Source of the DNA: Henckelia pumila
Taxonomy: Eukaryota; Streptophyta; Magnoliopsida; Lamiales; Gesneriaceae
Direction of reading: 5' to 3'
DNA: 64,000 bases
NCBI RefSeq assembly: GCF_033568475.1
Contig: NW_027331831.1
Coordinates: 8,246,001 to 8,310,000, forward strand
Shown here: positions 26,614 through 64,000 of the stretch, piece by piece
Position numbering within the stretch: the stretch's first letter is position 1
Layout of the letters: every line of letters begins with the position of its first letter
The notes under the pieces: model-generated
Databases searched by the model: none
Told to the model about the DNA's origin: nothing
The model's input: the letters and a program-made list of their open reading frames with translations, nothing else
Position numbers and translations under genes: made by a program

Positions 26614-26622
26614 TAAGCAATA

Positions 26623-27447: not shown

Positions 27448-27456
27448 TAAGCAATA

Positions 27457-30112: not shown

Positions 30113-30116
30113 TTTA

Positions 30117-30128
30117 TGGTATCAGAGC
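30117..30128 (+). other. Primer-binding site (initiator tRNA-Met)
   Basis: TGGTATCAGAGC starts 4 bases after the 5' LTR. It is complementary to the 3' end of plant initiator tRNA-Met, the usual primer of chromoviruses. Confidence 0.9.
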
Positions 30129-30449
30129 ATGCAATAAGATTCTTTGGGACATAGTATTGATTTTGGGTTATCCTTTATAGGATTACAATTTGGTTTCAAT
30201 GACGATAGCAGTATCAGGAATTGGAATAGCAGGATGTCTAGGCTTTTCCAAGATCGTCATTGCCATGGTTGGCAGTAGAGGATCGTATTATGTGGATCCC
30301 AGCAGGATGGAGCTGGAAGAGAAGATCCAGTTTTCAACGCCAGGAGCTTCGTAGGGTTGAACGGAATGTGTGACATGTAGTCATCCATTCTGCGTCGACC
30401 AAGGAAGCCACCCAGATAGATCCTACCAAGAGGATGTCTCAAGAAGCTT

Positions 30450-32900: not shown

Positions 32901-33024
32901 CAGGAAATCAAGAATTGTGGACAACAACGTTGTCACAGGTGTTATGACAAGTGTTAGTCGTAAAGTATGAGAACCCTTTTGGTATACAAAGATTTGCGTA
33001 CGAGGTTCTTTCTGGTGGAAAGGA

Positions 33025-34134: not shown

Positions 34135-34285
34135 GAGTCGTATGCGTACAGATTATCCAGAGCTATTTTGATTGTTGTATTTTCAGATTGTAACTTGTAA
34201 AATGAATCAGTTTGAATAAAAGATGTTTATTCAGTATTTTATTGCATTCAGTACTTAAGATTGTTCGAGGACAAAATATCTTAAG

Positions 34286-34296
34286 TAGGGGGAGAA
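34286..34296 (+). other. Polypurine tract of the Tekay-like element
   Basis: AGGGGGAGAA-type purine run directly before the 3' LTR, the priming site for plus-strand DNA synthesis. Confidence 0.85.
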
Positions 34297-37972: not shown

Positions 37973-39318
37973 GGGTTGCGTTTACTTAGTAAAATTAATT
38001 TTATATAGATAAATAATACTAAGATTATTAAAATATTTTTATAAGATGTGGAATAATGATGGATAAGCAATAACGTGTTTACTTTGATTCCCAATTTTGT
38101 GATTGTTGTCATTTGCTTATCACATATATAATCTTATTTTTAGTTTGTATTTGTAAAATTGAGATTGTGATTTTTATTGAATAATGCAAATCATTATTAA
38201 TTCACTTTTAAATTATTTTAATTAACAAAATTATTGAGTAGAAATTTTATTTTCAAAAAAATTTTAAAAATTGATTAAAAAAAATTTCATGAATAAGAAT
38301 AAAATCCAATGAAATGTATTAATCATATCTACAATTATTAGAATTTTTATTCATATTTTATAATTTTTAAATGTATTTTTGAATATTAAAATCAAATGAA
38401 ATGTATTAAATATATCTTAAAGTATTTGAAATTTCTATTCATGTTTTATAATTTTGGAAATGGGGTTTTCATATATTATTTTTTGGGAAGTAAATGATAT
38501 TATGTAATTTTAGAAAGATAATTAGTTAAAAAGGATTATTTATCACACATTTTATTTGTGATAAATCATCAAAATTTAAAGTTTAAATTAGATAAATATG
38601 AATGGACTTTATAAGTTAATACGGGTTCTAAAAAAAATAAGTAAACATGAGATTGATAAGATTATTAGGGTCCTCAAAAAGCAAGTAAATGGTGTGATAA
38701 ATAATCATTTTTAACTAATTATATTTCCAATTGAAAAAAATTACACTAATATCCTTTAATTTCCAAAAAAATAATATATGAAAACCCCCATTATTTTAAG
38801 ATATATTAATAGATTTCATTTGATTTTAAAATATGAAAGATCTATTTAAAAATTATAAAACATGAATAAAATTCTAATAATTTAAAATATAATTAATACA
38901 TTTCATTGGATTTTATACTAATTCATGAAAAAAAAAAATTTAACTCAATTTATTAATTTTTTTTTAAAAAATAAATAATATTTATACTCAATAATTTTGG
39001 TCAATTAATACATGTGGATTAATAATAATTTACATTATTCGATAAAAATCACAATCTCAATTTTACAAATAAAAACTAAAAATAAGATTATATATTATAA
39101 GCAAATAACAAAATTGTAACTCGTTACTTAATCATAATATCAATCACAAAATTGATCTATCAAAGTAAACATGTGATTGATTATTCATCATTATTTAACA
39201 TCCTATAAAATTAGTTTAATAGTGTTAATATTATTTATCTATATATAATTAATCTCACTAAATAAACATAGCATTAATATAATCATATGTTTATTATATA
39301 AAGCAAATAAACGCAGCC
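37973..39318. mobile_element. Large foldback element with arms of about 550 bases
   Basis: The left end GGGTTGCGTTTACTTAG and the right end, read on the other strand, GGCTGCGTTTATTTGC start two long inverse arms. Matching internal words include TATAGATAAATAATA, TGTTTACTTTGAT, TATAATCTTATTTTTAGTTT and AAAATTGAGATTGTGATTTT. The arms together cover most of the 1346 bp. No transposase is encoded. The flanks do not show a clear long target duplication; a 2-3 bp one cannot be excluded. Confidence 0.65.
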
Positions 39319-41486: not shown

Positions 41487-41636
41487 TGTAGTGATCCAAT
41501 AAAATATTAAACAAGATTAAAATGACCATTACTTAAGTAAAACAAGGGATTAAACGATTTGGAACCAAATAATTTGAATTCGGACCCTTCGAAGAGTGCG
41601 GATCAGCCGAAATGAGTTCAGAAGCATCGAACGTAG

Positions 41637-41980
41637 TGCTACAACTTAAATTGTAATTCACCCAAGTGTAGGTTGTCTGCAAGTAATATACTCGTGAGTA
41701 CGAGATCGATCCACAGAAAGGATGCTGTAAGTTTAATTTTAACAATGATATATTATAGATGGAAATATTATTATAAAACTTCAAATATACAAATTATAAA
41801 ATTGTCAAGGCTTTAAAGATTCATTGTTGGTTTATTTAAGATTGCTTAACAAAAATAAATAAAAGAAACTAAAATAAGAATAAACATAAAAGAACAATAA
41901 AATATTTAAACAAATATATCATATAATATAGTTCCCACTATATTAATATCAGATTAACTGATATTTAATACATGGTACCC

Positions 41981-42022
<42 letters not shown>

Positions 42023-42132
42023 TGCATAAATATAAACATAAAAGAACAATTAAATATTTAAACAAATATATCATATAATATAGTTCTCACTATATTAATA
42101 TCAGATTAACCGATAATTAATATATGGTACCC

Positions 42133-42206
<74 letters not shown>

Positions 42207-43463
42207 TGCATAAATATAAATTGACATAAAATTAAATAATAGATCAAATCACCATATTTCATTTAGAACAACCGGCAGAGCCACGCTATCGTCTAAATAA
42301 AATATATGACTTTTGTTTTATGTTAGATGCGAGAAAGTAAATGTTAGTTGCGAGAAAGTAAATGTTAGTTGCGGAAAAGTAAATGTTAGATCAAATCACA
42401 ATATATTATTTAGAAAAACCGGCAGAGCCACGCTATTGTCTAAATAATATATATGATTTTATTATAAATTGATACATACATTTATAGTATATAATTATTG
42501 TAGTATTTATTGTATTATATTAGACAACAAATCAAGTTAACCACATTCAAGGTACCAAGTATTTGATGTAAATAGATAACAATAAATCATCCAAATTACA
42601 ACTACAAATAAAGATCAATTAGTAAAAATAAAAATAAAAAATGAAAGAATATACAAAATATAAACAATCTTACTTGACCAACAATGAAACCATTTCACCT
42701 TGACATAAAAGGATTTAGCTTGCCATGAACATAAGACTCAAGAGTAAGGATAAAAGAAATTCATACTTAAACTTGGAGAAATATGCACACTCAAATTCTT
42801 ATTCTTACACACACAATATTTATTTTACAAGTGAGAAATTTCTCTACACTTTTGCACACTACAAAGCTTATACAACACATCTATTTATAGGCCAAATGAG
42901 AGCAAGAGTCCAAGGCTCATTAAATGTGGAATAGTAAATTTGGTGGGTGCTTGTCTCCTTGAATTTCAATACCATGACCCAACTTTAATTGGCATGTTTG
43001 ATGCCTTAGACCACCGATTCAGCCTTTTCATTCAACATAGAACACGTAGGATATTTTGTGTAGATGTGTTTGGACATATAATTCACCTCTTTTGGATAAA
43101 AGGTGAAATAGTTATGATATTTTTACTACAAGCTGGTCATAATAAAAGTAAATCTTTCTCCTTTTTGATTTTTGATAATTTGATCATCTTAATGAGGTTT
43201 TTGGAATTTATTTTCTTCTACAAAGTTGAAGATGCTTTTTTTGTGATTCTACAGGATTTGAGATTACTCCAATATGGCCTCTGTAGCTTGAGTAATTTTA
43301 TTTTTATCAAACTTGCGCAAACCGTAAAATACAACATTTTTAATAAAATATTTAAATATAAACATATAACACTAAAATAATACAAATTCATAATTTTAAT
43401 GAAACTTTAATTTTAAAACACACTTTTTAACATATAAATAATTACAAATTTTAAGTTTCATCA
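41637..43463 (-). repeat. 3' LTR of the Athila-lineage element
   Basis: 1827 bp with TG...CA ends. It contains (AT)n runs at about 41986-42020 and 42138-42204, and three 21-base units of the form GTTAGATGCGAGAAAGTAAAT (42322-42384). These lie between two diverged copies of a 70-base stretch with ACCGGCAGAGCCACGCTAT. The + frame 42940-43380 inside it is not conserved in length in the other LTR and is not called a gene. Confidence 0.9.
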
Positions 43464-43477
43464 CACCCCCAAACCGG
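43464..43477 (-). other. Polypurine tract of the Athila-lineage element
   Basis: CCGGTTTGGGGGTG on the minus strand directly precedes the 3' LTR, the usual form in this lineage. Confidence 0.8.
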
Positions 43478-44953: not shown

Positions 44954-45523
44954 TTAACGAACAAAAGCTTGGAGATCATCAATTAATTGGCCGTCATTCG
45001 AAGCAGAGATGAGCATCCTTCGTGCATTTTCTGAAATGAAATTTTGTTCAACAGCTACATCAAGAAAAGTCAACAAACCATCATAATAGTTATTGATATT
45101 CAACAAGCCAACATATTTATTATGATTATTAAGTTGTGCCCAAGAAACAACATGAAAAATTTCTTCTAAACTACCAAAACCACCTGGTAAGGCAATAAAA
45201 GCATCAGAATTATCTATCATTTTAGTTATTCTCTCGTACATTAATGAAACTTTCAACTCTTCCCCAACCGTAACACTTGTAATATTTCCTTCAGCTAAAG
45301 CTGTAGGAATAATACCCAAAATCTGACTACCTCCAAGATGAGCTGCTGTTGAAATAGATCCCATTAGCCCAATATTGCCTCCTCTATATACCAAGTGAAT
45401 TTTTCTCTCTGCTAACTTTTTTCCAAGATTAATTGCTGCATCAACAAATATTTCATTCTTTCCAATATTAGAACCACAAAATACACAAATATTTTTCAAT
45501 TTTTGTGAAGCAGATCCTGCCAT
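44954..45523 (-). CDS. LOG-type cytokinin riboside 5'-monophosphate phosphoribohydrolase inside the retrotransposon
   Basis: Intact 189-residue frame from the ATG at 45523, in a good context (AAAAAACATGGCAGG). Reading further upstream would require a GTG start. LOG enzymes release active cytokinin bases from their nucleotides in cytosol and nucleus. Landmarks are NICVFCGSN near the start, LVYRGGNIGLMG (usually GGG; first Gly is Arg here), ILGIIP, Arg98 in LMYERITKM, and PGGFGSLEE (family PGGxGTxxE) with Glu121. These two positions are the known catalytic Arg and Glu. The C-terminal part keeps SWAQL, YVGLLNINNYYDGLL and ISENARRM. Length and numbering match plant LOG proteins. Plant LOG genes have several introns; this copy has none, so capture through an mRNA is likely. 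It lies in sense between integrase and 3' LTR. The Gly-to-Arg and Thr-to-Ser changes leave activity open. Confidence 0.9.
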   Translation of the reverse strand: MAGSASQKLKNICVFCGSNIGKNEIFVDAAINLGKKLAERKIHLVYRGGNIGLMGSISTAAHLGGSQILGIIPTALAEGNITSVTVGEELKVSLMYERITKMIDNSDAFIALPGGFGSLEEIFHVVSWAQLNNHNKYVGLLNINNYYDGLLTFLDVAVEQNFISENARRMLISASNDGQLIDDLQAFVR

Positions 45524-45989
45524 GTTTTTTTCTTTTCTTAATTTCTCTCTCACACTCTTTTTTTTTCAATATGTAAAGAAAATTCAAGAATGCATTTATA
45601 GAAAAACAATTGTACGAAAAGTCAAAATATGAATAATAGAAAACATACACACATAAAAGTTTAAGAAGTTCATTTTGCACGTATCCACTGGAATGCGTCT
45701 CAAAAGACATTGGAAGTGGATCCAATGGTTCTTTACTCAGCCCATTCCTAATGAATAATATTTTATCTTCTCTGTTTGCGGATGTCATTCCAACATTCTT
45801 ACAATGTCCGTGACAAGTCCACCTAGCACATTTGTAACATTTACCTATATTTTTAGCTCTACTATTTTTAGCATAAGTACTTTTTCCAAATTCAGGCATT
45901 TGTTTGATAATGATCTTACTTGCTTCCCCATCAATTCGAACCTTTGCTTCAATAATAAAGAGAATATCATCAGAAATATTATACGACAT
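45468..45989 (-). CDS. Small basic Cys/His-rich protein, possibly related to carlavirus nucleic-acid-binding proteins
   Basis: The first ATG of this frame is at 45989, giving 173 residues. Residues 35-50 are basic (KSTYAKNSRAKNIGK) and lead directly into CYKCARWTCHGHC, with Cys51, Cys54, Cys59, His62 and Cys63. The preceding part (SYNISDDILFIIEAKV) looks helical. A basic stretch next to a compact Cys cluster, after a short helical N-terminus, is the layout of the cysteine-rich nucleic-acid-binding proteins of carlaviruses, some of which suppress RNA silencing. That link is my inference and needs a profile search. The last 60 residues are Phe/Tyr- and Lys-rich, overlap the LOG start in another frame and may not be functional. 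A 14-codon frame opening at 46090 lies upstream, in another phase, and could be a displaced 5' end. The next gene downstream is LOG, same strand. Confidence 0.55.
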   Translation of the reverse strand: MSYNISDDILFIIEAKVRIDGEASKIIIKQMPEFGKSTYAKNSRAKNIGKCYKCARWTCHGHCKNVGMTSANREDKILFIRNGLSKEPLDPLPMSFETHSSGYVQNELLKLLCVYVFYYSYFDFSYNCFSINAFLNFLYILKKKECEREIKKRKKHGRICFTKIEKYLCILWF

Positions 45990-46196
45990 AAGTAAACGTA
46001 ATCTCTCGCATCTAGCTTTATAAATATTTTTCAACTTATTATGAGCTATACCACAAAATATTTACGAAGATTAAAAATACAAACATCCATATTAATATAT
46101 ATATATTCAATTATTTTGGGAAATTTAAATAAAAACCGACTAAAAGTAGTCACGGAGTAGCGTTATCCGCCACTTAACTGGGAAATGAACTCAATT

Positions 46197-46221
46197 CTGC
46201 AAAAATAAAATGAAAATATAA
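46197..46221 (-). promoter_or_regulatory. Putative splice acceptor upstream of the Cys/His-rich and LOG genes
   Basis: On the minus strand a pyrimidine-rich run ends TTTTATTTTTGCAG|AATTG, with AG at 46198-46197. It lies just after the integrase stop (46229) and 207 bases before the ATG at 45989. Joining a leader to this site would give a spliced mRNA for the 3' genes, as proposed for env-like genes of other Athila elements. Donor and use are unknown. Confidence 0.4.
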
Positions 46222-46228: not shown

Positions 46229-48749
46229 TTAATTTGGATCATATAAAGGCATAAACTCATCATTAAGAATTTCATTTTCTAAAAATAGTTTAAGCCTTTG
46301 CCCATTAACTTTAAACACATTATTTGTTGAATCCGACATTTTGGTGATAACAAACAACAACTCATTGTATAGGAATGTGCTGCCAATATTTTGTATTTCA
46401 GGAATCTACTACAACTCCTACCGCAACCGTCTAAACCCTTCAAGTTATCTACCGAAAGCTTGTCAACCGCCTTTGTCTCTCGACCGATTGCAGTCACAAG
46501 CCTATCGACTGGTTATTCAAACCAGCAGAGGATAAATCTATCTACCGGTAGAATGCCAACTGTCTATCAAGATATCTCAAGACAAATACTTGAGACAAGA
46601 CGTTCATTGAAAGATCTTTTATCAAAAGCAGAACCGGCGTATCAGAAGATCTGTTGACTCTTGCATCGAGAGATAAACCGGCGTATCAGAAGATCTGTTG
46701 ACTCTTGCATCGAGACAACAGGTTGCACTAAAATGGCAAAAACGCAGAATGGCTACAGATAAAGCATTCGACCGTTTATACCAGTTTTGGACCCTGGAAG
46801 TTGTCTGCATTTAAAGAAGTGTACGATCTTCATGCAGAATCATCAATGCATTTATGAAGCATTAAATGTGCATTCAATGCAGCATCAGAACGTTAAAAAT
46901 AAAGACGTTGATGATTGACCTATATAAAGGGAAGATTGCTCAAGAAGTGACAAGAAGACAAGCAACACGAAAAATCTCAATCAACTCAATCACTTGAATA
47001 ATATCAGAAGTCCTCATCTGATATACTGAAGCAATACTTGAGCACACTTACAAGATCATTCACTTTCTGCTCAAATAAACCCTCGCCTACAGTTTACATA
47101 TCTGATCTTCAAGGATCATCCTAGGGTTTCCAAGCCTCTCGACCGCTCTGCAGTTTGAGAAGCTCAACCGGACTGTATTCATTATTGAAGAGACTTGAAG
47201 CTACTCTGAAAGCTTCCACCAGTCTGATAAGAACTGAGAATCTTATCTGTGTAAATCTAGGAGTTTCGGATTAGGCATTGGATAAGTCCTAAATCTGAAG
47301 TGGGTGTATTGCAAGACGTTGTAATAACCAAAGTCTTCTAGTGAATTCCTTCCTAAGTGGAAGAAGGGGAGACGTAGAAGGATTAAGCCTTCGAACTTCC
47401 ATAAATCGTGCCTTAGTCTTTACTGCATATTTATCTTATATATTGCTCATACATCGTGTTATAACTTGCCTTTGCATCACTAAAACCTCTGAACTATTTC
47501 CGCACTATTTAAGTTGTTCAAACCATTTTAGAAGTTGAGAAAACAGATTAAGTGAACTAAACTTCACTTGATCATTTTGAAAAGAAAGAAAATAAGTTTC
47601 AGAGTGTATTCACCCCCCCTCTACCCTCTGAACCGATCCCAACATTATTATTTTTAGGATTTTCAACATCAACAGCACCATGAGGATGGACAAATTTAAC
47701 AATAAATGGTCCAGACCATCGTGATCTAAGTTTTTCTGAAAACAAATGCAAGCGAGAATTATAAAGTAAAACTTTTTGTAAAGGCTTTTGTTTTATCTTT
47801 ATAAATCTTTGCATTTTCATATGCATCATTTCTTAATTCTTTTAGTTCATTTAATTGCAATTTTCTTAATTTAGATGCATCATCTAAATTAGTATTAAAT
47901 ATTTTAATAGCCCAATAAGTTTTATGTTCAATTTCAACCGGTAGATGACAATGCTTACCAAAAACTAACCTATATAGTGACATCCCCAATGATGTTTTAA
48001 ATGCAGTTCTATATGCCCATGATACATCACTCAATCTTAAAGACCAATCTTTTCGATTTGGACTGACTGTTTTTTCCAAAATTTGTTTTATTTCTTTATT
48101 TGCAAGTTCAACCTGACCATTCGTTTGAGGGTGATATGGATAGAAACTTTATGTGTAATACCATATTTTCTTAACAACGAAGAAAATGATTTATTTATAA
48201 AATGACTTCCCCCATAACTGATTATAGCTTTAGGTATTCCAAATCGACTAAAAATATTTTCTTTCAAAAATTTTATCACAACTTTATGATCATTAGTTCT
48301 ACATGCAATTGCTTCAATCCATTTTGAAACATAATCGACAGCCACTAAAATATAAGTAAATCCAAAAGATAATGCGAATGGACCCATAAAATCTATTCCC
48401 CAACTGTCAAATATTTCAATGGATTTAAAGGCATCATGTTTCGTTTTGAAATTGAACCCATTTTCTGACAATTTTCACAAGATTTGCAAAATAAATGCGT
48501 ATCTTTGAATAAAAAAGCCCAATAAAATCCACATTGAAATATTTTTGCAGCTGTTTTCTTTGACGAAAAATGACCTCCACATGCCTCATAATGACAAAAT
48601 TTAATGACACTACTTACCTCATTGTCGGGTATGCAACGTCGAAAAATTTGATCAGGACAATACTTAAACAAATAAGGATCATCCCAATAAAATTTTTTGA
48701 CCTCTTTCAAGAATTTATTTTTATCTTGTGAACTCCAATGAGAAGGCAT
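46229..48749 (-). pseudogene. Athila integrase, split by a solo LTR and frame breaks
   Basis: The first piece (48749-48393) holds the HHCC finger (FCHYEACGGHF ... [11 protein letters not shown]). The second (48471-48088) overlaps it in another frame and has IDFMGPF with the first catalytic Asp. In the second catalytic position the usual Asp of the ISDGG word is Tyr ([10 protein letters not shown]). The reading frame shifts again near 48140, after which [19 protein letters not shown] and [20 protein letters not shown] follow (48079-47646). The solo LTR at 46325-47645 interrupts the frame, and the last 32 codons resume at 46324 and stop at 46229. Loss of the Asp and the breaks make it inactive. 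Confidence 0.9.
46325..47645 (+). mobile_element. Solo LTR inserted in the Athila integrase
   Basis: 1321 bp, starting TGTTGAATCCGACATTTTGG and GTGATAACAAACAAC, ending TTCACCCCCCCTCTACCCTC ... GATCCCAACA. A perfect 5-bp target duplication TTATT lies at 46320-46324 and 47646-47650. It shares words and layout with the repeat at 28248-37676, probably the same or a sister family (likely Ty1/copia, judged from recalled LTR ends). It contains two diverged copies of a AGAAGATCTGTTGACTCTTG word (46645 and 46689). No internal region remains, so it arose by LTR-LTR recombination. Confidence 0.85.
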
Positions 48750-48845: not shown

Positions 48846-49244
48846 TTAATTTTGAGACGATTCAAAAATTATTCTTGATAAATGATCGGTTACTACATTT
48901 TCTTTTCCTTTTTTATATTTTATTACAATATCAAATTCTTGTAACAACAAAATCCATCGTATTAATCTCGGCTTAGCATCTTGTTTATTTGATAAATATT
49001 TTATGGCAGAATGATCAGTATAAACAATAGTAGTAGAACCAATTAAATAGGATCGAAATTTATCTAATACAAACACTACTGAAAGTAATTCTTTTTCAGT
49101 TGTTGAATAATTGATTTGAGCACTATTTAAGGTTCTACTAGCATAGTAGATCACATGAGGTTTATCTTCTTTTCTTTGTCCTAACACGGCTCCTACAGCA
49201 TAATCACTTGCATCACACATTAATTCAAAAATGGTAAATACCAA
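48846..49244 (-). pseudogene. Athila RNase H domain
   Basis: [40 protein letters not shown] and [11 protein letters not shown] give the Asp-Glu-Asp residues of the reverse-transcriptase RNase [15 protein letters not shown] and VVTDHLSRI follow. The frame is offset from the RT frame by one extra T in a T run near 49222, so the polyprotein is broken here. Confidence 0.9.
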
Positions 49245-51112
49245 TCAGGAGGTTGTAAAATAGGTGATGTAGTTAAAAGATTAATTATCTTTTTAAAAAC
49301 AGTTTCACATTCTTGAGTCCATTCAAATTGTGCATCTTTTGTTAAAAGATTTGAAATTGGTTTCGATATTATGCTAAATTTTTTTATGAATCTTCTATAA
49401 AATCCCGCATGACCCAAAAATGATCGAATTTCTTTGATCGTGTTTGGTGATGGTAAATTAGCAATAATATCAACCTTAGCTTTATCAACTTCAATTCCTT
49501 TTTCAGATATGACATGCCCTAACACAATTCCGGATTTAACCATGTAGTGACATTTTTCCCAATTTAAAACAAGATTTTTTTCTTCACATCTTTTTAAAAC
49601 TTCTTCCAAATTTTTAAGACAGTTTTCAAATGAGTTTCCAAAAACAGTTATATCATCCATAAAAACTTCCACAAATTCTTCAATCATGTCACTAAAAATA
49701 CTTAGCATGCATCTTTGAAAAGTAGCCGGAGCATTACATAAACCAAATGGCATTCTTTTAAATGCAAAAGTTCCAAAAGGACAAGTGAAAGTAGTTTTTT
49801 CTTGATCTTCTAATGATATTGGTATTTGATAATACCCCGAATACCCATCAAGAAAACAATAAAAAGGATTACCTGCCACTTTCTCTAAAATTTGATCTAA
49901 AAATGGTAACGAAAAGTGATCTTTTCTAGTTGCATCATTTAACTTTCTATAATCAATGCACATACGCCAACTAGATGGAATCCTAGCTTGTAATAATTCT
50001 CCTTTTTCATTTTTTATAACAGTGATGCCTGATTTTTTTGATACTACTTGTGTTGGACTTACCCATTTACTATCCGAGATTGGATAAATAATTCCACCAT
50101 CTAATAATTTTAACACTTCAGTTTTAACAACTTCTTTCATGTGTGGATTTAATCTTATTTGTGGTTGTTGATATGTTTTAGCATTTTCTTCCAAGTGAAT
50201 TCTATGCGTACAGATTAAAGGATTTATACCTTTTATATCTTGCAAAGTCCATCCAATTGCATTTTTGTGTTTTTTAAGTAATGTTATTAAATCTTCTTCT
50301 TGTTTTGGTAAGAGGGTAGAAGATATTACAATAGGATATGTTTGATTTTCACCAAGAAAAGCATATTTTAGTTCTATTGGTAAATGTTTTAATTCAAGTT
50401 TTGGATGATCATCTTCTTTTACTTCTTCAAGTTCATTAATTTCTTCAAATAACTTTGATTTAAAAACACTTTCCACAAAACAAACTTCTGGTTGTTGATT
50501 TAAGTTTTCTTGGTGTATATTTTCTTCAAAGATTGTTTCTATTGCATTATCATCTTCATCTTCATTCATACTTGGTTGTTTACATAAATTGAACACATTA
50601 AGTTCTAAAGTCATGTTTCCAAAAGATAATTTCATTATTCTATTTTGAAAATTAATTAAAGCATTTGAAGTTGCTAGAAATGGACGTCCCAATATTATTG
50701 GAATTTCATTATGCACTTCTATTGGTTGTGTATCCAAGACAATAAAATCCACAGGATATATGAATTTATCGACTTGAACTAACACATCTTCTACGATACC
50801 TCTAGATATTTTGATTGACCTATCGGCTAGTAAAAGAGTGACAGATGTAGATTTTAAATCTCCCAACTTAAGTTTTTCATAAACTGAATAAGGAAGTAAA
50901 TTCACACTTGCTCCCAAATCTAATAAAGTTTTTTTAATTTTATTTTTTACAATAATACATGAAATTGTTGGACAACCTGGATCTTTATATTTCAAAGTAG
51001 AATTATTTTGAATAATAGAACTTACTTGTTCAGTTAAAAATGTTTTCTTCTTTACATGCAATTGTCTTTTAACAGTACATAAATCTTTTAAAAACTTTGC
51101 ATAAGAAGACAC
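49220..51112 (-). CDS. Athila protease-reverse transcriptase part of the polyprotein
   Basis: 630-residue frame. The protease active site [14 protein letters not shown] begins at residue 65 and the flap-side [15 protein letters not shown] follows at about 140. The RT starts near residue 320: [57 protein letters not shown] region, [16 protein letters not shown], then FMDDITVFG (catalytic Asp pair, residues 484-487). [19 protein letters not shown] and [13 protein letters not shown] close the domain. These words match the Athila lineage. Gag and protease are one polyprotein in such elements; here a stop between 51180 and 51112 separates them, so this is a fragment of a broken frame. Confidence 0.9.
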
Positions 51113-51179: not shown

Positions 51180-52689
51180 TCATTTTTTTGTTTTTTTATT
51201 ATTAACTAATGCATGAGGAAAAGGAACATTTTTATTTGACTCACATATTACTTCAGATAATTTATCATCAACTTTCTTATTATTAGGACCCAAAGCATCA
51301 TCTTTCTCAAAAGTATCGGGATTTGAATCCTTACTCTTTGAGTTTAATTGATCTTTGTTTTCATCACTATATGGATCATTAACTATTTTATCACTTCTAA
51401 GAGTAATAACAACTTTTACTTGATCAAATTTATCTTGATTTTGATTTTTAGGATTAGGTTGTGGTTGAAATGGAAATTTTCCTTTTTTCATGAATATTAA
51501 GTGCAGATGCAAATTTTGCAAGAGTTTCTTTCAAATCATTCATAGATTGAATGTTTTGAATATTGATAGACTCTTGCTTTTGAATGTATGCATGAATTTC
51601 ATCTTCAAAATGTTTTTTTGGAGGTGGGATATAAGGAGCATAACCTTGATGATTTTGGTTATTTTGAAAAGGTTGTTGTGAAGGTTGTGCATTATTATCG
51701 TTCCTCCAACTAAAATTAGGATGATTTCTCCAACCAGGATTATATGTTTGTGAAAAGGGATCTAATGTTGGTTTTTTAAAATTATTAACATAATTGGCTT
51801 GTTCATGGAGACATTCTTTAAATGAAGGCAAAGTAGGACAATTTTTTGTAAGATGGTCATGTGTGTCACATATATGACAAATAATTTCTTGAAAACTTTT
51901 TAATTGATCACTCTTTTTCATTTCTAATGACTCGATTTTTCTTGCTAAAGATGCAAGTTTGGCTTGAATATATACATCATCTTTAAGATTATAAATACCA
52001 ACCCCATTTGTTGAATTATTGGTTTTACTTGGTGGTTCAATTGAGTCTATATTATCCCAATTTTGAGCATTTTCTGCTAATGATTCCAAATATTCCATAG
52101 CTTCATTTGGGTTTTTATCTTCAAAAGTTCCATTACACATGAATTCTATCATTTGCCTATCTTTAGGTATTAAACCTTCATAAAAGTGAGAAACTATTTT
52201 CAATATTTCAAAACCATGTTGTGGGCATGTATTAAATAACTCTTTATATCTATCCCAACATTGATAAAATGTTTCCCCTTGTTTTTGAGAAAAATTTGTA
52301 ATTTGTCTTTTAAAAGAGTTTGTTCTATGGGAAGGGAAAAACTTTTTTAGAAATTATTGTTGCATTTCTTCACATGATCTTATTGAACTTGATCTCAAAT
52401 TTTGCAACCATGTTTTAGCTTTATCTTTTAAAGAAAAAGGAAAAAGCTTTAATCGAACAATATCCATGCTACAATTTTGATCATTATAAGTGTTGCAAAC
52501 CTCCTCAAATTCTCTTAAATGCAAATATGGATTTTCAGAATCTAGGCCATGAAAATTTGGTAAAAGTTGAATAATTTGAGGTTTAAAATTGAAATTAGAT
52601 GCATCAGGAGGAAAAACTAAACAAGATGGTGTACTAGTTATTATTGGATTCATATGGTGCCTAAGTGTTCTTGGTTGTTCATGTTCTTG

Positions 52690-52775
<86 letters not shown>

Positions 52776-52866
52776 CATCTTGATTATTATAATTATCCTC
52801 CATGTTTAAAATATTTTCAGATACTCGAACAAGTCTACCACTTTGTTTACGACTCCAAACAATCAT
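51180..52866 (-). pseudogene. Athila gag with poly-Asn tract, one stop and one frameshift
   Basis: Frame opens at 52866. A run of about 30 Asn codons (an ATT microsatellite on +, 52690-52775) follows a short N-terminus. The gag core has PNFHGLDSENPYLHLREFEE, KLFPFSLKDKAKTWL, an in-frame TAA at 52354, then ETFYQCWDRYKELFNTCPQH, IVSHFYEGL and a zinc knuckle CHICDTHDHLTKNC. GWRNHPNFSWRN follows. Near 51500 the frame moves at an A run (one extra base) and continues to 51180. Gag forms the virus-like particle. Apart from these two breaks the protein looks complete. Confidence 0.9.
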
Positions 52867-52931: not shown

Positions 52932-52951
52932 CCTCCCCGGCAACGGCGCCA
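52932..52951 (-). other. Primer-binding site of the Athila-lineage element (tRNA-Asp)
   Basis: TGGCGCCGTTGCCGGGGA on the minus strand, 6 bases from the 5' LTR end. It is complementary to the 3' end of tRNA-Asp, the common primer of Athila/Tat elements. Confidence 0.85.
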
Positions 52952-53025
52952 AAAACTTGCTACAACTTAAATTGTAATTCATCCAAGTGTAGGTTGTCTG
53001 CAAGTAATATACTCGTGAGTACGAG

Positions 53026-55440
53026 TGTGGGGACCTCGGGTTGCTAATATCGTCTTAGGACAACTAATGATTAATTAAACAATTAATCAAACAATTAAAG
53101 AATAATAAATCAAGAGTAGAATTTTTTTTAAAAAAAAAATCGGAGCCTCGCTCGATCGGTCAAAAGCAGCCGATCGAGCGAGCAAGAAAATCATGCCCTC
53201 GGGTTTGATCAGAATTTGGCCTCGCTCGATCGGTCAAATCCTGCCGATCGAGCGAGCAAGAAAAATCAAGTTTTCTGCCCAAGAAAACCAGGCCTCGCTC
53301 GATCGGTGAAATTCACCCGATCGAGCGGGCACCATTTCCAGAAAAATTCAGAACATTCTTTGCTGTCAAAACTTGGAACCATGGCATGAATCAACCATAA
53401 ATCTACTTCTAAACATGGTATACAATCTGGGAACATACATATAGACATGTACCAAGTCCTCAACCTCAAATCATGTGATTCTTACATCAAACAAATAACA
53501 TAATAAACATTTATCGAGCAAGCTACACAAGGACTCAAATGTGAGCTTCAAATATAAAAGTGTTTATCAAGTTTTATGCTATCTAACTACCATTCTTCAT
53601 CTTAAACCCGAGTCCACACTTGCTAAATCTCGCTCCCGAGCTATCAACATCATCTCAGACTAGCTCATGCCCCATCTGTTGCAATGCATACATACAAAAC
53701 AAAGCAACAACCGGATAAACTCCGATGAGAAATCATCTCAGTATAAGCAACATATAAAGCATTAAATAAATCATAATGACTCTATTCAATCGACTCAAAA
53801 AATAGAGTAAATAACGCTTCTTTCGATCGATCGGGAATTGATTCATACTTCTTCGTTTCCATCAAGATTCGTATCCGATCTTGACATGAATATTCATCTA
53901 TCGAAATCATTCCGGATTCGAAAATAAGGTCGTCCTCCGACCTCGGCATAGAATCAATTCGTATCATCATCGTATCAACATCATATCAACTCAAAATCAA
54001 AGATCCACTACCTGGGATGGATCGACAACATAAAAATCAAATCGAAATAATAAATACATATGTGGTTTTGGCGGGACAACTCAAGAAGAATCGATCTTGA
54101 GTTTCAAAATCCCTGACTCTCGATGTCGTCATTATACCTTCGTATTTATTCTGTTTTGAACGCTTTAATCTGAAACATAACATCAAAACATTCATATCAA
54201 TCTTCATTCTAGTCAATCATTTCAGAATCGAGTCACAATCATCAATATATCTTCAATCAAATTCATTTCAAACCTCACATCTTCTTCTTTGGTTCGAATT
54301 CGGAGTCTTGAGTCGTTAGCCTTCAAAACTAGTCTGAAACGGAGAAATAAAATTGCTATATCATCGATAACATCTAAAAGAACATCTCATCTCAGTTATA
54401 GGCTATCAAAACGGCTTCAAATCATCAATCGACGGCGTAGCGATTAAAAATCGGTAACCGATGAAATATCGAATTCGAATCTAACTTATTTAACTTCATG
54501 AACGTGTGATATATCAGCACTATAACCTCATACACCAGCATATCAACACAATCAGCTGCTATAACTCTCTATATACATGCTGGAAATCATAACAAGTTCA
54601 TTCAAGAATCAATCTTCGATTCGTTTTCGATATCGGAATGTAAATACGTTGAATAACGTAAACATAACATCAATTCCTGATATCTATCAAATTTCAATCT
54701 TCAAAACTTGCCAAAGTAATTCAAAACTTACATCAAGTCGAAGTACTCGTCGCAAGTATTCCAGAACACTTTTCGAAATTGAAATCGGACGATAGGATCA
54801 AAAGTTACGGGATTTCGAAAATCAGAAATCAAAAGAAAGGAAGAGGATCTCGACCTCTGTTCTGAAAATTCTGAATTACACATTTGGAATACACGTATCA
54901 TACTGATAAATCTGATTAAAAATCGGATATGTATTGCATATTTGCAATTTAACCCCAGTCTTCATGAATTGCAATTCAGTCCTCGGCCTTCGTTTTAATT
55001 CAATTTCAATCCAAAATAATTTAAGAATATTATAATTTAAATCGAAACTCTAAATATTCCCAAATTAAATATACTCGAATTAAAATTAAATAAATTTGGA
55101 TTAATTAAATAATCCTGGCCTTTTGCACTTTATCCCTTCAAACTTTGATATTTGCAAATCAGTCCCTGATCGGGTTGTATCTTCAAAATTAATCTTCTTT
55201 AATTCCCGAAACATGGAATTTAATCTTAAATTCCATAAATATTCAAATCGAATATTTATTCTTTTAATTTAAGAATTCTCGGAATTTAATTCTCAAAATC
55301 CGTAAATTCTCAAATTAAATATTTTCGGCTCGGAAATTAAATCTATCATTTTCATAACTTCTCAAATCAATATTAGCCCATAATATGAAATTTAATTCTC
55401 AAATCTCATAATTAATAATTTAATATTTCTGGGCCTTACA
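53026..55440 (-). repeat. 3' LTR of the nested non-coding element
   Basis: 2415 bp. Three strong inverted repeats CTCGCTCGATCGG...CCGATCGAGCGAG with 13-base arms sit at 53147-53182, 53221-53256 and 53294-53329. In element sense they lie near the end of the LTR. Short open frames such as 53782-53970 occur in both LTRs but have no known domain. Confidence 0.9.
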
Positions 55441-55456
55441 ATTCCTCTCCTCTAAG
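55441..55456 (-). other. Polypurine tract of the nested element
   Basis: TTAGAGGAGAGGAAT on the minus strand next to the 3' LTR. Confidence 0.75.
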
Positions 55457-58400
55457 GAATGTTTTCGTCCTCGAAATCGCATTCAATCGAACTATTCAAT
55501 CTGATAGACTGAATGATTATCTGAAGTAATTCTCACTTCAATCATCCAACTCTGATCTTCGTATCTCATCTCTTCATTTCTTATCAGACTATTTCTTTGA
55601 ATCTGCTTCTATTTTCTTGTACTTTAATTAACCGATAAGAATCCTTTCTGAGTGGTTTCTTTCTCAATCAAGGATCTGTCAAATAATCGACTTAACTCAT
55701 AATATTTTCAATATATATCTCATCGGATTAAAGCACGTAGGAAGAATCGACTGATACTTCCTTCACATAGATACGTGGAACAAATCAGATCCATCATATC
55801 AAGCTGAAAAGAATAAATCGTTCAATCAAATCATCAATTCTATCTGACATCTCAGTCAATGAAATTCAGCTTCAGTGACGACTTGTTTCTTTCTCCATAT
55901 TATTCCATGCTCTACATAGAACATATATCAAATCTACACTGTCATTCTGTTCATCGCTTCAAAATCAGTATTCTCATTCATATTCTGAATCTGTAAAACA
56001 ACTCTGCTCTTTCTCAATTCTGAATTGAATAATGTTTCAATAATAACTCTTTCGCTTAACGAATCAGTTTCAGCTTCAAAAGTTATATCTATCATTCAAT
56101 TACTAATTATGTTTCTTCTTCTTTGTTTTTATTTCGTACAGATTCATCTTCAACATCTTTGTGTGTCTCAAATCAAATCTGATCTGATATCGACAAATCA
56201 TGTCTGATCTAATGTCATATACTTAGGTAGTATCATTTCAACACAAAGGAATCAGATTTCTTTTCATCATATCATCATAGCATTATCTCAAAATCGACTC
56301 AATAGCTGTTACAGGAATTATAATCATCAAGTGGCAACACATCAATTCAATTAATACCGAATCAGGTATTAAAGTTCTGAGAATATTCTCAACATCTGGA
56401 AAATCAACTCAAATAATCCATCAATCGAAGAATGATATAATGTAATCACATATAACCAACTCTCAGAACATCAATCAATCAATTGATGCCACATCCTGTC
56501 GAATAAAATCTAAAGTCTTAATCCTGACAATAGATTTTAATCATTCCTGTAATTCCATCATATCTCTATCTTTTCCACAACTATCTAGTCATATCTGTAT
56601 CACATCTTATACAGCGTATTCTAAAATTCTGATTAGTCTATTCGGACTATCTATTAATCAGAGTATAATATGTTGTATTCACATATTTCAAAGTATTCAG
56701 AGCTGTTGATAATCGGTATCATGTCAGATAAAGTTCATTCTCGAAATTCGATTCATCTTCTCTGACTATTCTTCAATTCAAGATTAACATTTTGTACTTT
56801 CACATCCAAAAAGTACTCAAAGCCTTCTGTTCGTCTGTATTACAATTCACTAGTAAACCTAATGTCTCAATTTAAAACAATAATTCTTGGCTTAATGTGA
56901 CATCTCGCACAATTCTAATCACGGATCAGTGATTTATTCGTACAGACAGATCATCTTATTCAGTAACTTCAATCAATCTGATCATAACTAACACATGTTT
57001 ACCTCATCTATACTGCTTCATCATGGTAGTTTCGCAAAATATTCTTTCAAATCATAATCTCGTAACAATTCTGGAGATTCTAAACTGTTACTGAACTAAT
57101 CTAGTCAATGATTTTCAACTTCATAAGAAACTCTCTATACGTTTAACTTCGAAAACGTACTAATTCTGTTACATCTGTTTGCTTAATCTTCTGATAAAAC
57201 AATTATTGAACGAATATTGAAGTCATTGTTGTGCAATTCTTCAAATTCTGATATTTCTTTTCAAAAATATCAGTCACAATCAGATAATCAGTCACAAATG
57301 AATTCATCCATTCTGATCTGAGGCTTCAATTCATATCTCAATCTGGCATTCTTTACTGAATTCTCATCGTTTCAATTTACTTTCTGTGTTTCTTTCATCT
57401 TCTTGAACAGTTCTGGCTTACTTTCAATCGAAAATCATTCTGATTGGTGATATATTCGTCTGAATATTCAAACCAGAATACACAGAAATCTGGAATCAAT
57501 TCATCGGATGCCTATTCCATTCCTCATTTCTATCTCCAAATACCGACAATTCATATCATCTAACCAAAAATCATGGATCATATTCAAATTCTTCTATCAG
57601 TTACGAGCCAACAATCTTAAAATACGCTGAAATATCGTCAAAGGATCAATAATTCTCAAAATCAAAAGAAATAAATCAAGATTGAGAAAATCCCTCAATC
57701 AAGGTCATCCAAAATCAAATCTTTTGGATAACAAACTCTGCAAAGTGAAAACAACTCACTTGCATCACCCAACTCAGAATGAGTGAATCAACACAGGCTC
57801 TAAACGAAAGCAATGTGCCATGAGAGCCAATCAATATTCAATCATTTCAAGAATCATATTTCCAATTGATGTAATCGATTCAGCATAATCAAAGAAAAGA
57901 CTCAACTGTAACTGATTTTCATATCATCGTCTATCTTATAAACCTCAAAAGCAGTATTCAATTCATCAATTCATCAAGTCTCTATAAAATTCCAATTCAC
58001 AACTTAAACGAAAGTCGAAATCTTACTGGAATATATCTGTCATCTCTATTCATCGGCATATCTATCAATGCTGATTTAGATCTTGAACATATCTAGTGCA
58101 TCGAATATACTGATTTCGGAATATTTCTGTAATCCAACATCATATATCAAACCGAAATCACAGAATCTTAATTCTAAATCTCATATCATATCATCTTATC
58201 CATATGCACATTATGTTCTGGCTGATCTAATTCAATCGCTTCTTATAATCAATTTTATAACAATCTGTAATAGGTTATTGCATCATCATCTATCATGCAA
58301 CCTAACTGATATCTCAAATACGAACACAATCATATTCAGTTTCTGTTCTTTGAAGCAAAATCATGTTCAGTCTCATTTCATCAATTCAGTAGTTCAATTC

Positions 58401-59702
58401 TTCAGTTCAATTCACAAAGTCTCTTTTCTGATACAGAGGTACGATATAACACAACTTCCAGCTATCATATATTTATTGCACCAATAACATAAACAGGTTA
58501 AAACAAAATAAATCTGTTACCTGCAATTTCATTCTCAGGTGCAATTTTATTCTGATCCTTTGTATACTTCTGGAACCATTCTTCATTCAAATCATCTAGA
58601 ATCTGATTTACTTAGGACATCGCCTAATAAATCTGCCTGAACTGTTTTTACACTGATCGTTAGGATATCTCCTCCCACAATCAGTGTAATAATCATTAGC
58701 ATACTCTGCATTCAGAACCAGACTAATTTGTCTCAGTTCGCTATAATTAAAGAACTACTTCTAGACCTTTCATCTCATATCTGCTCTAAAATAGAAATTG
58801 TAGCTAAAGTTGTGATTATCTCACATACTATGGCATGTCTACAATTTCATTCTTTCTGCCTCATCATTCAAATTCAGTTCTCTTAGCCGTATTTATGTCT
58901 TTCATAAAATGTTTCAGTCGTCCACATTTATTCAGACATAATCCCCGAATCCAAGCCACCACTAACAATTCAATGTTGAGCTTCTTCATCATCATCATCA
59001 ACAATTCAAAGAATTGTAGTAAACTTGAAAATCAATTAAGGCATTCTCCAAGATTCAAAATATTCAAAATATTCGACTTCTAATGGGTATATCTTTCTTT
59101 CTGATCATTTCTATCTGTTGTGACAAAGAATCATGAATCAAAATCTGTTCTGAGCACTTACCAACAAATAAATATACCTCAAGTCTGTCAGAATTTTTTC
59201 ATCAAAATCTATCAGCTGGTTGCTAGGTCTTGAAGTTGATAAACAGTCAATCTGATACGTCATTCATCAGTATCTTTCAGGTATCTGAACGACTGATCAA
59301 GTTTTTCAAGCCAACTTCTACCTGCAATATCATCTATTCATTCGCTGATATTCTGTTCTGTTCAATCAGAGATACTTCTTTCAGCTGAGCAATACGGTTC
59401 TGTTCAGTCTGACCATACCATTCTGTTTAGTCTGGGGTGCTTACCTCACCCAAAGAACATTGTTTTCTTCGATTCTGGGTGCTTACATCACCCGAGGAAA
59501 ATCTTATAACAAAATCAGTAAAAAATTCAAAAATTTAAAAATCAGTAAATCAAGCAGTTGAATTTCAACGATAGATCACGTTCACATGCAATTTATCAAA
59601 TCATCGAATCATCAAATCAAGTAATGCACAATCATGCAATACTATAAATGCATGTGACTCAATCTACCCCGCTCAGTTTCTATCTCAGTCCAAGAAACTT
59701 AC
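55457..59702 (-). other. Internal region of the nested element without coding capacity
   Basis: About 4.2 kb, TCA/ATC-rich on the + strand. No gag, protease, RT or integrase motif is visible on either strand. The frames at 56025-56207, 58083-58487 and 58835-59083 lack domains and lie on the strand opposite to the element. A GGGTGATGTAAGCACCC-like unit occurs twice near the primer-binding site (about 59437-59500). Confidence 0.65.
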
Positions 59703-59714
59703 GCTCTGATACCA
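59703..59714 (-). other. Primer-binding site of the nested element (initiator tRNA-Met)
   Basis: GCTCTGATACCA on +, that is TGGTATCAGAGC on the minus strand, 5 bases inside the 5' LTR. This fixes the element's direction. Confidence 0.9.
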
Positions 59715-59719
59715 CCTGT

Positions 59720-62124
59720 TGTGGGGACCTCGGGTTGCTAATCTCATCTTAGGGCAACTAATAATTAATTAAACAATTAAAGAATAATAAATCAAGAGCA
59801 GAATTTTTTTTAAAAAAAAATCGGAGCCTCGCTCGATCGGTCAAAAGCAGCCGATCGAGCGAGCAAGAAAATCATGCCCTCGGGTTTGATCACAATTTGG
59901 CCTCGCTCGATCGGCCAAATCCTGCCGATCGAGCGAGCAAGAAAAATCAAGTTTTCTGCCCAAGAAAACCAGGCCTCGCTCGATCGGTGAAATTCACCCG
60001 ATCGAGCGGGCATCATTTCCAGAAAAATTCAGAACATTCTTTGCTGTCAAAACTTGGAACCATGGCATGAATCAACCATAAATCTACTTCTAAACATGGT
60101 ATACAATCTGGGAACATACATATAGACATGTACCAAGTCCTCAACCTCAAATCATGTGATTCTTACATCAAACAAATAACATAATAAACATTTATCGAGC
60201 AAGCTACACAAGGACTCAAATGTGAGCTTCAAATATAAAAGTGTTTATCAAGTTTGATGTTATCTAACTACCATTCTTCATCTTAAACCCGAGTCCACAC
60301 TTGCTAAATCTCGCTCCCGAGCTATCAACGTCATCTCAGACTAGCTCCTGGCCCATCTGTTGTAATGCACACATACAAAACAAAGCAACAGCCGGATAAA
60401 CTCCGGTGAGAAATCATCTCAGTATAAGCAACATATAAAGCGTTAAATAAATCATAATGACTCTATTCAATCGACTCAACAAATAGAGTAAATAACGCTT
60501 CTTTCGATCGATCGGGAATTGATTCACACTTATTCGTTGCCATCAAGATTCGTATCCGATCTTGACATGAATATTCATCTATAGAAATCATTCCGGATTC
60601 GAAAATAAGGTCGTCCTCCGACCTCGGCATAGAATCAATTCGTATCATCATCGTATCAACATCATATCAACTCAAAATCAAAGATCCACTACCTGGGATG
60701 GATCGAAAACATAAAAATCAAATCGAAATAATAAATACGTATGTGGTTTTGGCGGGACAACTCAAGAAGAATCGATCTTGAGTTTCAAAATCCCTGACTC
60801 TTGATATCGTCATTATACCTTCGTATTTCTTCTGTTTTGAATGCTTCAATCTGAAACATAGCATCAAAACATTCATATCAATCTTCATTCTAGTCAATCA
60901 TTTCAGAATCGAGCCACAATCATCAATATATCTTCAATCAAATTCATTTCAAACCTCACATCTTCTTCTTTGGTTCGAATTCGGAGTCTTGAGTCGTTAG
61001 CCTTCAAAACTAGTCTGAAACTGAGAAATAAAATTGCTATATCATCGATAACATCTAAAAGAACATCTCATCTCAGTTATAGGCTATCAAAACGGCTTCA
61101 AATCATCAATCGACGGCGTAGCGATTAAAAATCGGTAACTGACAAAATATCAAATTCGAATATAACTTATTTAACTTCATGAACGTGTGATATATCAGCA
61201 TTATAACCTCATACACCAGCATATCAACACAATCAGCTGCTATAACTCTCTATATACATGCTGGAAATCATAACAAGTTCATTCAAGAATCAATCTTTGA
61301 TTCGTTTTCGATATCGAAATGTAAATACGTTGAATAACGTAAACATAACATCAATTCCTGATATCTATCAAATTTCAATCTTCAAAACTTGCCGAAGTAA
61401 TTCAAAACTTACATCAAGTCGAAGTACTCATGGCAAGGATTCCAGAACACTTTTCGGAATTGAAATCGGACGATCGGATCAAAAGTTACGGGGTTTCGAA
61501 AATCAGAAATCAAAAGAAAGGAAGAGGATCTCGACCTCTGTTCTGAAAATTCTGAATTCCACATTTGGAATACACGTATCATGCTGATAAATCTGATTAA
61601 AAATGGGATATGTATTGCATATTTGCAATTTAACCCCTCAAGTTTTCATTAATTGTAATTTAGTCCTCGGCCTTCGTTTTAATTCAATTTCAATCCAAAA
61701 TAATTTAAAAATATTAGAATTTAAATCGAAACTCTAAATATTCCCAAATTAAATATACTCGGATTAAAATTAAATAAATTTGGATTAATTAAATAATCCT
61801 GGCCTTTTGCACTTTAGCCCTTCAAACTTCGATATTTGCAAATCAGTCCCTGATCGGGTTGTATCTTCAAAATTAATCTTCTTTAATTCCCGAAACATGG
61901 AATTTAATCTTAAATTCCATAAATATTCAAATCGAATATTTATTCTTTTAATTTAAGAATTCTCGGAATTTAATTCTCAAAATCCGTAAATTCTCAAATT
62001 AAATATTTTTGGCTCGGAAATTAAATCTATCATTTCCATAACTTCTTAAATCAATATTAGCCCATAATATGGAATTTAATTCTCAAATCCCATAATTAAT
62101 AATTTAATATTTTTGGGCCTTACA
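59720..62124 (-). repeat. 5' LTR of the nested non-coding element
   Basis: 2405 bp, closely matching the copy at 53026-55440, including the three CTCGATCGG hairpins (about 59827-60010). A short TTAATC-type segment present once more in the other copy near 53085 is the main length difference noticed near that end. Confidence 0.9.
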
Positions 62125-62404
62125 ACGAGATCGATCCACGGAGAGGATGTTGTAAGTTTAATTTTAGCAATGATATATTATAGATGGAAATATTATTATA
62201 AAACTTCAAATACACAAATTATAAAATTGTCAAAGCTTCAAAGGTTCATTGTTGGTTTATTTAAGATTGCTTAAAAAAATAAATAAAAGAAACTAAAATA
62301 AGAATAAACATAAAAGAACAATAAAATATTTAAACAAAAATATCATATAATATAGTTCTCACTATATTAATATCAGATGAACCGATATTTAATACATGAT
62401 ACCC

Positions 62405-62438
<34 letters not shown>

Positions 62439-62682
62439 TGCATAAATATAAACATAAAAGAATAATTAAATATTTAAACAAATATATCATATAATATAGT
62501 TCACACTATATTAATATCAGATTAACCGATAATTAATATATGGTACCCATAATATACATATATAAGTGCATAAATATAAATTGACATAAAATTAAATGTT
62601 AGATCAAATCACCATATTTTATTTAGAACAACCGGCAGAGCCACGCTATCGTCTAAATAAAATATATGAATTTTGTGTTTAT

Positions 62683-62808
62683 GTTAGATGCGAGAAAGTA
62701 AATGTTAGTTGCGAGAAAGTAAATGTTAGATGCGAGAAAGTAAATGTTAGTTGCGGAAAATTAAATGTTAGATGCGAGAAAGTAAATGTTAGTTGCGGAA
62801 AAGTAAAT
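62683..62808. repeat. 21-base minisatellite in the Athila 5' LTR, six units
   Basis: Six units of the form GTTAG(A/T)TGCG(A/G)(G/A)AAA(G/T)TAAAT, starting at 62683, 62704, 62725, 62746, 62767 and 62788. The other LTR has only three such units at 42322-42384. Confidence 0.85.
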
Positions 62809-64000
62809 GTTAGATCAAATCACAATATATTATTTAGAACAACCGGCAGAGCCACACTATTGTCTAAATAATATATATGACTTTATTATAAATTGATACA
62901 TATATTTATAGTATATAATTATTGTAGTATTTATTGTATCATATTAGACAACAAATCAAGGTAACCACTTCAAGGTACCAAGTATTTGATGTAAATAGAT
63001 AACAATAAATCATCCAAATTATACCTACAAATAAAAATCAATTAGTAAAAATAAAAATAGAAAAAGAAAGAATATACAAAATATAAACAATCTTACTTGA
63101 CCAACAATGAAACCATTTAACCTTGACATAAAAGGATTTAGCTTGTCATGAACATAAGACTCAAGAGTAAGGATAAAAGAAATTTCATACTTAAACTTGG
63201 AGAAATATGCACACTCAAACTCTTATTCTTACACACACAATATTTATTTTACAAGTGAGAAATTTCTCTACACTTTTGCACACTACAAAGCTTATATAAC
63301 ACATCTATTTATAGGCCAAATGAGAGCAAGAGTCCAAGGCTCATTAAATGTGAAATAGTAAAGTTGGTGGGTGCTTGTCTCCTTGAATTTCAATATCATG
63401 ACCCAACTTTAATTGGCATGTTTGATATCTTATACCACCGATTCAGCCTTTCCATTCAACATAGAACACGTAGGATATTTGTGTAGATGTGTTTGGACAT
63501 ATAATTCACCTCTTTTGGGTAAAAGGTGAAATAGTTATGATATTTTTACTACAAGCTGGTCATAATAAAAGTAAATCTTTCTCCTTTTTGATTTTTGATA
63601 ATTTGATCATCTTAATGAGGTTTTTGGAATTTCTTGTCTTCTACAAAGTTGAAGATGCCTCTTTTGTGATTCTACAGGATTTAAGATTACTCCAATATGA
63701 CCTCTGTAGCTTGAGTAATTTTATTTTTATCAAACCTGCGCAAACCGTAAAATACAACATTTTTAGTAAAATATTTAAATATAAACATATAACACTAAAA
63801 TAATACAACTTCATAATTTTAATGAAACTTTAATTTTAAAACACGCTTTTTAACATATAAATAATTAAAAATTTTAAGTTTCATCATGTAGATCAGAACG
63901 TTCGATTAAAATTTAGCTCATGCAGATTCTAATTCGGTGTAAAAAATGCATGAACATATGGAGGGTCGGATCCATCGATTCGGATCATCCAAACACAACT

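Follow-up and report, generated by a model that had tools for sequence, protein, structure and literature searches.

Structure of the element and its position in the window

The window, i.e., the whole 64-kb stretch of DNA that was analysed, holds one copy of an Athila-type LTR retrotransposon, which spans 41637-63886 on the minus strand. Between its integrase and its polypurine tract lie two additional genes in the sense orientation, one for a flexivirus-type cysteine-rich nucleic-acid-binding protein (CRP/NABP) and one for a LOG (cytokinin riboside 5'-monophosphate phosphoribohydrolase-type) protein. The features are listed in order of position.

41632..41636, no strand: left target-site duplication CGTAG (sequence)
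41637..43463, minus: 3' LTR (TG...CA termini, self-BLAST)
43464..43473, minus: polypurine tract TTTGGGGGTG, adjoining the 3' LTR (read in the sequence)
44954..45523, minus: LOG gene, 189 codons, early stop
45650..46090, minus: CRP/NABP gene (Pfam, relatives)
46197..46219, minus: splice-acceptor-like site, a pyrimidine tract followed by TGCAG, with its G at 46197
46229..46324, minus: C-terminal end of the integrase (...NNVFKVNGQRLK...), assigned by reading
46325..47644, minus: solo LTR within the integrase, 1320 bp, duplication AATAA
47645..48749, minus: rest of the integrase (H2C2 and rve), frameshifted (Pfam)
48846..51112, minus: protease, reverse transcriptase and RNase H, the protease just below the Pfam cut-off
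51180..52866, minus: gag region in several broken frames, gag and zinc-knuckle matches below the Pfam cut-off
52934..52951, minus: primer binding site of the tRNA-Asp type, TGGCGCCGTTGCCGGGGA
52958..53025, minus: 5' LTR, end part (self-BLAST)
53026..62124, no strand: nested LTR element in the 5' LTR, with LTRs at 53026-55441 and 59720-62124, duplication ACGAG
62125..63886, minus: 5' LTR, start part (self-BLAST)
63887..63891, no strand: right target-site duplication TGTAG (sequence)

The preliminary description of this DNA had placed two sense frames between the integrase stop at 46229 and the polypurine tract, inside a single element with a pair of LTRs and a tRNA-Asp primer site, and both the open reading frames and the sequence bear out this arrangement. 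The 5' LTR is in two pieces because a nested 9.1-kb LTR element has inserted there. Aligned with each other, the LTRs of the Athila-type element differ at 54 of 1697 bases (K2P 0.033), and the flanking duplications are identical at four of their five bases. An age estimate from the 89% identity reported by BLAST was rejected, as gaps mostly depress this figure. The primer site directly follows the 5' LTR (52951-52934), and we take its tRNA to be tRNA-Asp. Matches to reverse transcriptase, RNase H, H2C2 and rve exceed the Pfam cut-offs and follow the gypsy order, those to gag and protease fall below, and the two C-terminal integrase pieces scanned gave no chromodomain match; we thus counted the element as gag-protease-RT-RNase H-integrase in gypsy order without a chromodomain. 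A Pfam scan of the integrase end at 46229..46324 gave no integrase match. The primer site and the gene layout, with additional open reading frames between integrase and polypurine tract, are the basis on which we presume the element to belong to the Athila lineage. In some Athila relatives this slot holds an envelope-like gene.

The nested element has LTRs of 2.4 kb that are 96.6% identical to each other (K2P 0.028), with tandem CTCGATCGG-type repeats at 53145-53337. It looks non-autonomous, because the longest open reading frame listed in 53026-62124 has 134 aa. Part of the solo LTR (47257-47405) is 71.5% like 37189-37338. Elsewhere in the window, repeat blocks occur in swapped order across 28358-36104: 28583-30112 corresponds to 34297-35832 (92.7% identical) and 28358-28582 resembles 35883-36104. 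The integrase-like frames at 33025-34134, between the swapped blocks, probably belong to another gypsy element on the plus strand. Long self-inverted repeats at 37980-39267 (72%) and 26621-27449 (77%) are possible hairpin or foldback elements.

The CRP and LOG genes and their families

The frame first noticed as Cys/His-rich proved to be real. It matches the Pfam families Carla_C4 (PF01623, E 8.3e-7, 29.3 bits against a cut-off of 20.9) and, narrowly above the cut-off of 23, Viral_NABP (PF05515, E 7.1e-5, 23.3 bits), and with both scores above the curated cut-offs both matches lie beyond chance. Like the flexivirus CRPs (carlavirus NABP, Carla_C4; allexi- and mandarivirus CRP, Viral_NABP), the protein has a four-cysteine finger preceded by a basic stretch. 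It differs from them in its setting, beside LOG in an LTR element, in the size of its family members (~180 aa) and in a shorter finger. The accessible text of PMC8839810 gives the viral spacing as C-x2-C-x12-C-x4-C; a spacer of x10-14 was found in 0 of 120 aligned CRP rows, and 100 of them have C-x2-C-x4-C-x3/4-C. These 120 rows (alignment A3) are the window and 119 of the listed relatives, with P0009 and two Citrus fusions, P0154 and P0167, excluded.

A search with the single CRP sequence returned 9 proteins at E <=1, and a profile search returned 1063 at E <=10. Within the best 120 of these, the relatives named by organism are all from plants (Xanthoceras, Populus, Citrus, Acer, Rhamnella and Orobanche). 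At E <=0.01, Viral_NABP is matched by 107 and Carla_C4 by 102 of the 120 aligned rows; no other family matched more than three. Relatives that are only ~50% alike keep the four cysteines and a basic KKRRAK stretch at >=90% conservation. In the viral_contigs collection, one scan with LOG, one with the RT frame and one with each of two CRP alignments confirmed no relative. Phage records gave no tblastn match to the CRP, and none of its relatives was found among solved structures.

The copy of the CRP gene in the window is damaged. Its ATG lies at 46090, a frameshift precedes 46034 and an open core runs from 46034 to about 45650; we place the frameshift near the start of the gene because the relatives begin at the position of ATG 46090. 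The final ~30 codons diverge from the CRP family, the basic stretch is altered (K57N, R58S), and the protein differs at 21 of 64 near-invariant columns, a number to which the truncation of the aligned piece contributes.

The second frame is equally clear as a LOG homologue. The window protein (ATG 45523, stop 44954) matches PF03641 (E 6.4e-35, 120.6 bits, cut-off 27), as the first reading of a LOG frame implied, TIGR00730 (E 1.6e-47, 161.6 bits, cut-off 96.35) and Arabidopsis At2g37210 (E 1.6e-56), which places it in the LOG/TIGR00730 fold family. It reaches only 112.4 bits against the NCBI equivalog CtkRMPhLog (NF058542, cut-off 300), a cut-off also missed by its relatives P0010, P0014 and P0033. 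LOG yields active cytokinin. With the plant LOGs of Arabidopsis (At2g37210, 2a33; At5g11950, 1ydh) the element protein has in common the fold family and the PGGxGTxxE region; unlike them it sits on a long branch, and its relatives add a basic and LxLxL tail.

From the 5146 proteins that a LOG search returned at E <=0.001, the best 120 were considered, and 114 of them were aligned with the window (115 rows). Of these rows, 96 have an unaltered PGG.GT.EE and 97 an unaltered YGGG, and the retention of the former indicates that the active site is constrained. The window sequence fails both motifs, reading PGGFGS and YRGG. It carries 12 changes, including G47R, T118S and P137Y, at positions where P0010 and P0011 share the residue of the family majority, compared with 4 and 8 by the same count in P0010 and P0011. 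Its stop at 44954 is premature, because in-frame PDSAITNINWSQPTSKKRKLDH after it matches the tail of P0010. The gene bounds first proposed, 44954..46034, hence enclose frames that are indeed present, but the CRP gene really starts at 46090 and the LOG gene would have continued past its stop.

Of the 114 aligned LOG relatives, 103 are full-length (>=205 aa). LxLxL, which is one form of the EAR repression motif, occurs at the C-terminal end in 87 of the 103 (0.7% expected by chance), and 96 have a basic cluster within the last 16 residues. Alignments of P0014 with both Arabidopsis LOG proteins end before this basic/LxLxL tail. In the clade of the window LOG (P0010, P0011, P0017 and P0033), KKRK is retained and the leucine (EAR-like) part is absent.

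Broken gag-pol frames, a solo LTR in the integrase, the frameshift and lost C-terminus of the CRP gene, and the early stop and changed motifs of the LOG gene show that the window copy is decaying. It is a dead or dying member of a constrained family, and the idea that it still works finds no support. Neutral decay in all copies, which would have spoken against a kept cassette, is not what the aligned relatives display, since both proteins are constrained across them. Clusters of up to 566 member sequences for CRP (among the best 120 of 1063) and up to 327 for LOG (among the best 120 of 5146) fit repeated genes, although members may be redundant assemblies.

Recurrence of the CRP/LOG pair

The pair is not private to the window copy, judging by related sequences. 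Two Citrus gene models, P0154 and P0167, each predict a single protein in which LOG sequence comes after CRP sequence, as read from the gene models alone. Their LOG parts are without the PGG region, and rescans with Carla_C4 and LDcluster4 stayed below the Pfam cut-offs, which marks them as incomplete copies or models. We also compared the contigs from which CRP and LOG relatives derive, keeping 112 of 122 CRP and 83 of 120 LOG rows after we dropped the rows from contigs >100 kb and a single row that had no contig. Identical source and contig size (in nt) coincided for five CRP/LOG combinations against 0.81 expected, a number reached in 2 of 2000 jittered trials; above 1500 nt there were three against 0.20 expected (1 of 2000 trials). 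The two shorter coincidences, at 905 and 1018 nt, were rejected as pairs, as such contigs are too short for both genes and the matches must be due to chance. The remaining three, P0001/P0033 (1524 nt), P0140/P0013 (8723 nt) and P0141/P0035 (4511 nt), probably carry both genes, given their equal source and size. The motif FPKIIE, found upstream of the CRP start in P0001, is also present in the post-integrase spacer of the window. Recurrence of the pair, for which the preliminary description had proposed to look, is thus seen among related sequences in the two Citrus models and probably in the three contigs.

In the CRP tree (34 rows, the window and 33 of 122 listed relatives from the best of 1063), the window falls in one clade with P0001 and P0002 (100/100). 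The two Populus rows fall in one clade, as do the two Citrus rows, and Acer joins Xanthoceras (98/95); the deeper order is poorly supported. In the LOG tree (52 rows, including 49 of 120 listed relatives from the best 120 of 5146), the window groups with P0010, P0011, P0017 (Primulina) and P0033 (100/97). As P0001 and P0033 both stand in the group of the window, the likely partners track it in both trees, and the clustering of named CRP rows by host family suggests long retention. CRP and LOG identities across eight pairs, of which those from Populus and Xanthoceras were matched by genus only, correlate weakly (Spearman 0.29, p 0.14), and strict co-descent therefore does not follow.

Possible role and origin of the cassette

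The reading we favour, and hold to be fairly probable, is that the window contains a decaying copy of an Athila-type lineage with a long-kept CRP/NABP-LOG 3' cassette whose products would weaken silencing and promote cell division. What is known of relatives of both proteins points to dividing cells, with viral p12 causing hyperplasia and LOG yielding active cytokinin, and in the case of the CRP also to weakened silencing. Reasoning from relatives as regards expression, localisation, every biochemical activity and the benefit to the element, an intact copy would make a sense mRNA, full-length or spliced, from which both CRP and LOG are produced. The genes could be expressed from a transcript spliced at the acceptor-like site whose G is at 46197, between the integrase stop and the CRP gene, though the site is weak and one of nine such in the internal region. 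The CRP may enter the nucleus by means of its basic stretch and bind nucleic acid through its four-cysteine finger. It could then blunt RNA silencing and/or reprogramme transcription as p12 of chrysanthemum virus B (CVB) does; in the accessible parts of PMC12172455 and PMC8839810, viral CRPs are described as suppressors of RNA silencing and CVB p12 also as a hyperplasia-inducing transcription factor. LOG would convert cytokinin riboside monophosphates into active cytokinin, and in the many family members that have the basic and LxLxL tail, this tail may additionally interact with the corepressor TOPLESS. Jointly, the two proteins may hold the cell in division with silencing weakened, and an element transcribed in such cells might place new copies in daughter and germline-forming cells.

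The earlier suggestion that the element has taken up host and possibly virus-derived genes agrees with a host-type LOG and a CRP of the flexivirus CRP/NABP family, but the direction of transfer may also have been the opposite, i.e., flexiviruses (carla-, allexi-, viti- and mandariviruses) acquired the CRP from plant Athila elements in which it had arisen or resided. The CRP is patchy among viruses. The size of the plant family (1063 proteins at E <=10, those named by organism among the best 120 all from plants), the grouping of named rows by host family and a finger shorter than the viral one are all in keeping with such a transfer, which we nevertheless regard as somewhat unlikely, as the CRP tree is unrooted and without viral sequences, and viruses may occur beyond the best 120 of the 1063 matches.

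We also considered whether the cassette is a mere passenger, acquired in a single event of template switching or recombination and useless to the element, its apparent conservation reflecting recent copying and a database bias towards open frames. The window copy does decay, and a protein database lists predicted proteins and hence open frames. Against this, relatives ~50% alike keep the cysteines, the basic stretch and the LOG motif nearly invariant while other columns vary, and the host-family grouping of the CRP tree (Populus; Acer with Xanthoceras; Citrus) suggests long retention, so that we think this explanation unlikely.

LOG could alternatively act as the carrier of its tail rather than as an enzyme, with the fold as a scaffold and the basic/LxLxL end recruiting or titrating TOPLESS. 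The frequency of this tail (87 of 103 full-length relatives from the best 120 of 5146) would suit such a role, and the pathogen effectors HaRxL21 and Jsi1 reach TOPLESS according to the accessible portions of PMC7446885 and PMC8126959. The constraint on the active site, with PGG.GT.EE in 96 of 115 rows, and the loss of the EAR part from the clade of the window LOG make it improbable.

Independent landing of a LOG retrocopy and a fragment of viral origin in one Athila copy is suggested by A-rich stretches near both genes and by 12 8-mers shared between the flanks (1.3 expected), yet it is very improbable, as these are all A/T-rich low-complexity words, there is no target-duplication-like pair around the cassette, two Citrus models and probably three contigs join CRP to LOG, and FPKIIE upstream of the P0001 CRP recurs in the window. 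The preliminary description had named an insertion signature bounding the two genes as evidence to the contrary; this was rejected for the window flanks, where the shared words are of low complexity only.

The common view is that plant LTR elements depend on gag-pol and at most an envelope-like gene. If the favoured reading, a long-kept cassette acting on silencing and cell division, is true, a lineage that pairs a viral-type silencing suppressor with a hormone-activating enzyme would make transposons active manipulators of the host cell, and the cassette would offer a direct test of how plant elements enter dividing and germline-forming cells. The lineage would also supply a plant-genome relative of the flexivirus CRPs. 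It is tempting to go further, although only tentatively, and to see in it a widespread eudicot Athila lineage that serves as an endogenous carrier of effectors, in which two probably nuclear effectors, a flexivirus-type silencing suppressor or transcription factor and an EAR-tailed cytokinin-activating enzyme, form a unit across rosids and asterids, and from which flexiviruses may have obtained their CRP.

Steinbauerova et al. reportedly found, in 2011, two Athila-like elements with similarity to LOGL4. In agreement with that work, Alvarado-Marchena et al. (2022, PMC9289625) detected a YgdH/LOG domain in Citrus Gypsy consensuses and, under less strict filtering, in those of Populus, as far as the accessible text goes, where the full list of 15 extra domains is given in a figure. 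LOG in Gypsy elements is thus already known. The earlier remark, that no described family with the CRP/LOG pair was known, stands, as among the matches listed in the open-licence literature none reported the pair or placed a CRP in an LTR element. The Citrus and Populus Gypsy-Athila-like elements (LOGL4/YgdH) likewise have a LOG-domain frame, and both genera also yield CRP relatives. Unlike the present work, the accessible text of PMC9289625 names no CRP/NABP, pair or EAR-like tail. The same text describes Gypsy elements of Phalaenopsis that carry an AlkB RNA demethylase with assayed activity, likewise an added, retained frame of regulatory promise; there the protein and the host group are different, and the cassette described here is known from its sequence alone.

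Other reports are further removed. Cucumber carries a betaflexivirus replicase-like insert (PMC3136472), in the accessible report of which no nucleic-acid-binding protein was found. A caulimovirid insert (PMC5452135, accessible part) was set aside as irrelevant as a precedent, and a review of added frames (PMC7264820) does not mention LOG, cytokinin, carlavirus or nucleic acid binding in its accessible portion. In a survey whose accessible text states that additional frames were counted at >=250 codons (PMC6317226), CRP (~180 codons) and LOG (~215 codons) would both have been passed over. Several of the LOG relatives are annotated in plant genomes as ordinary LOG or hypothetical genes, and counts of the LOG gene family in such genomes may therefore include transposon genes.
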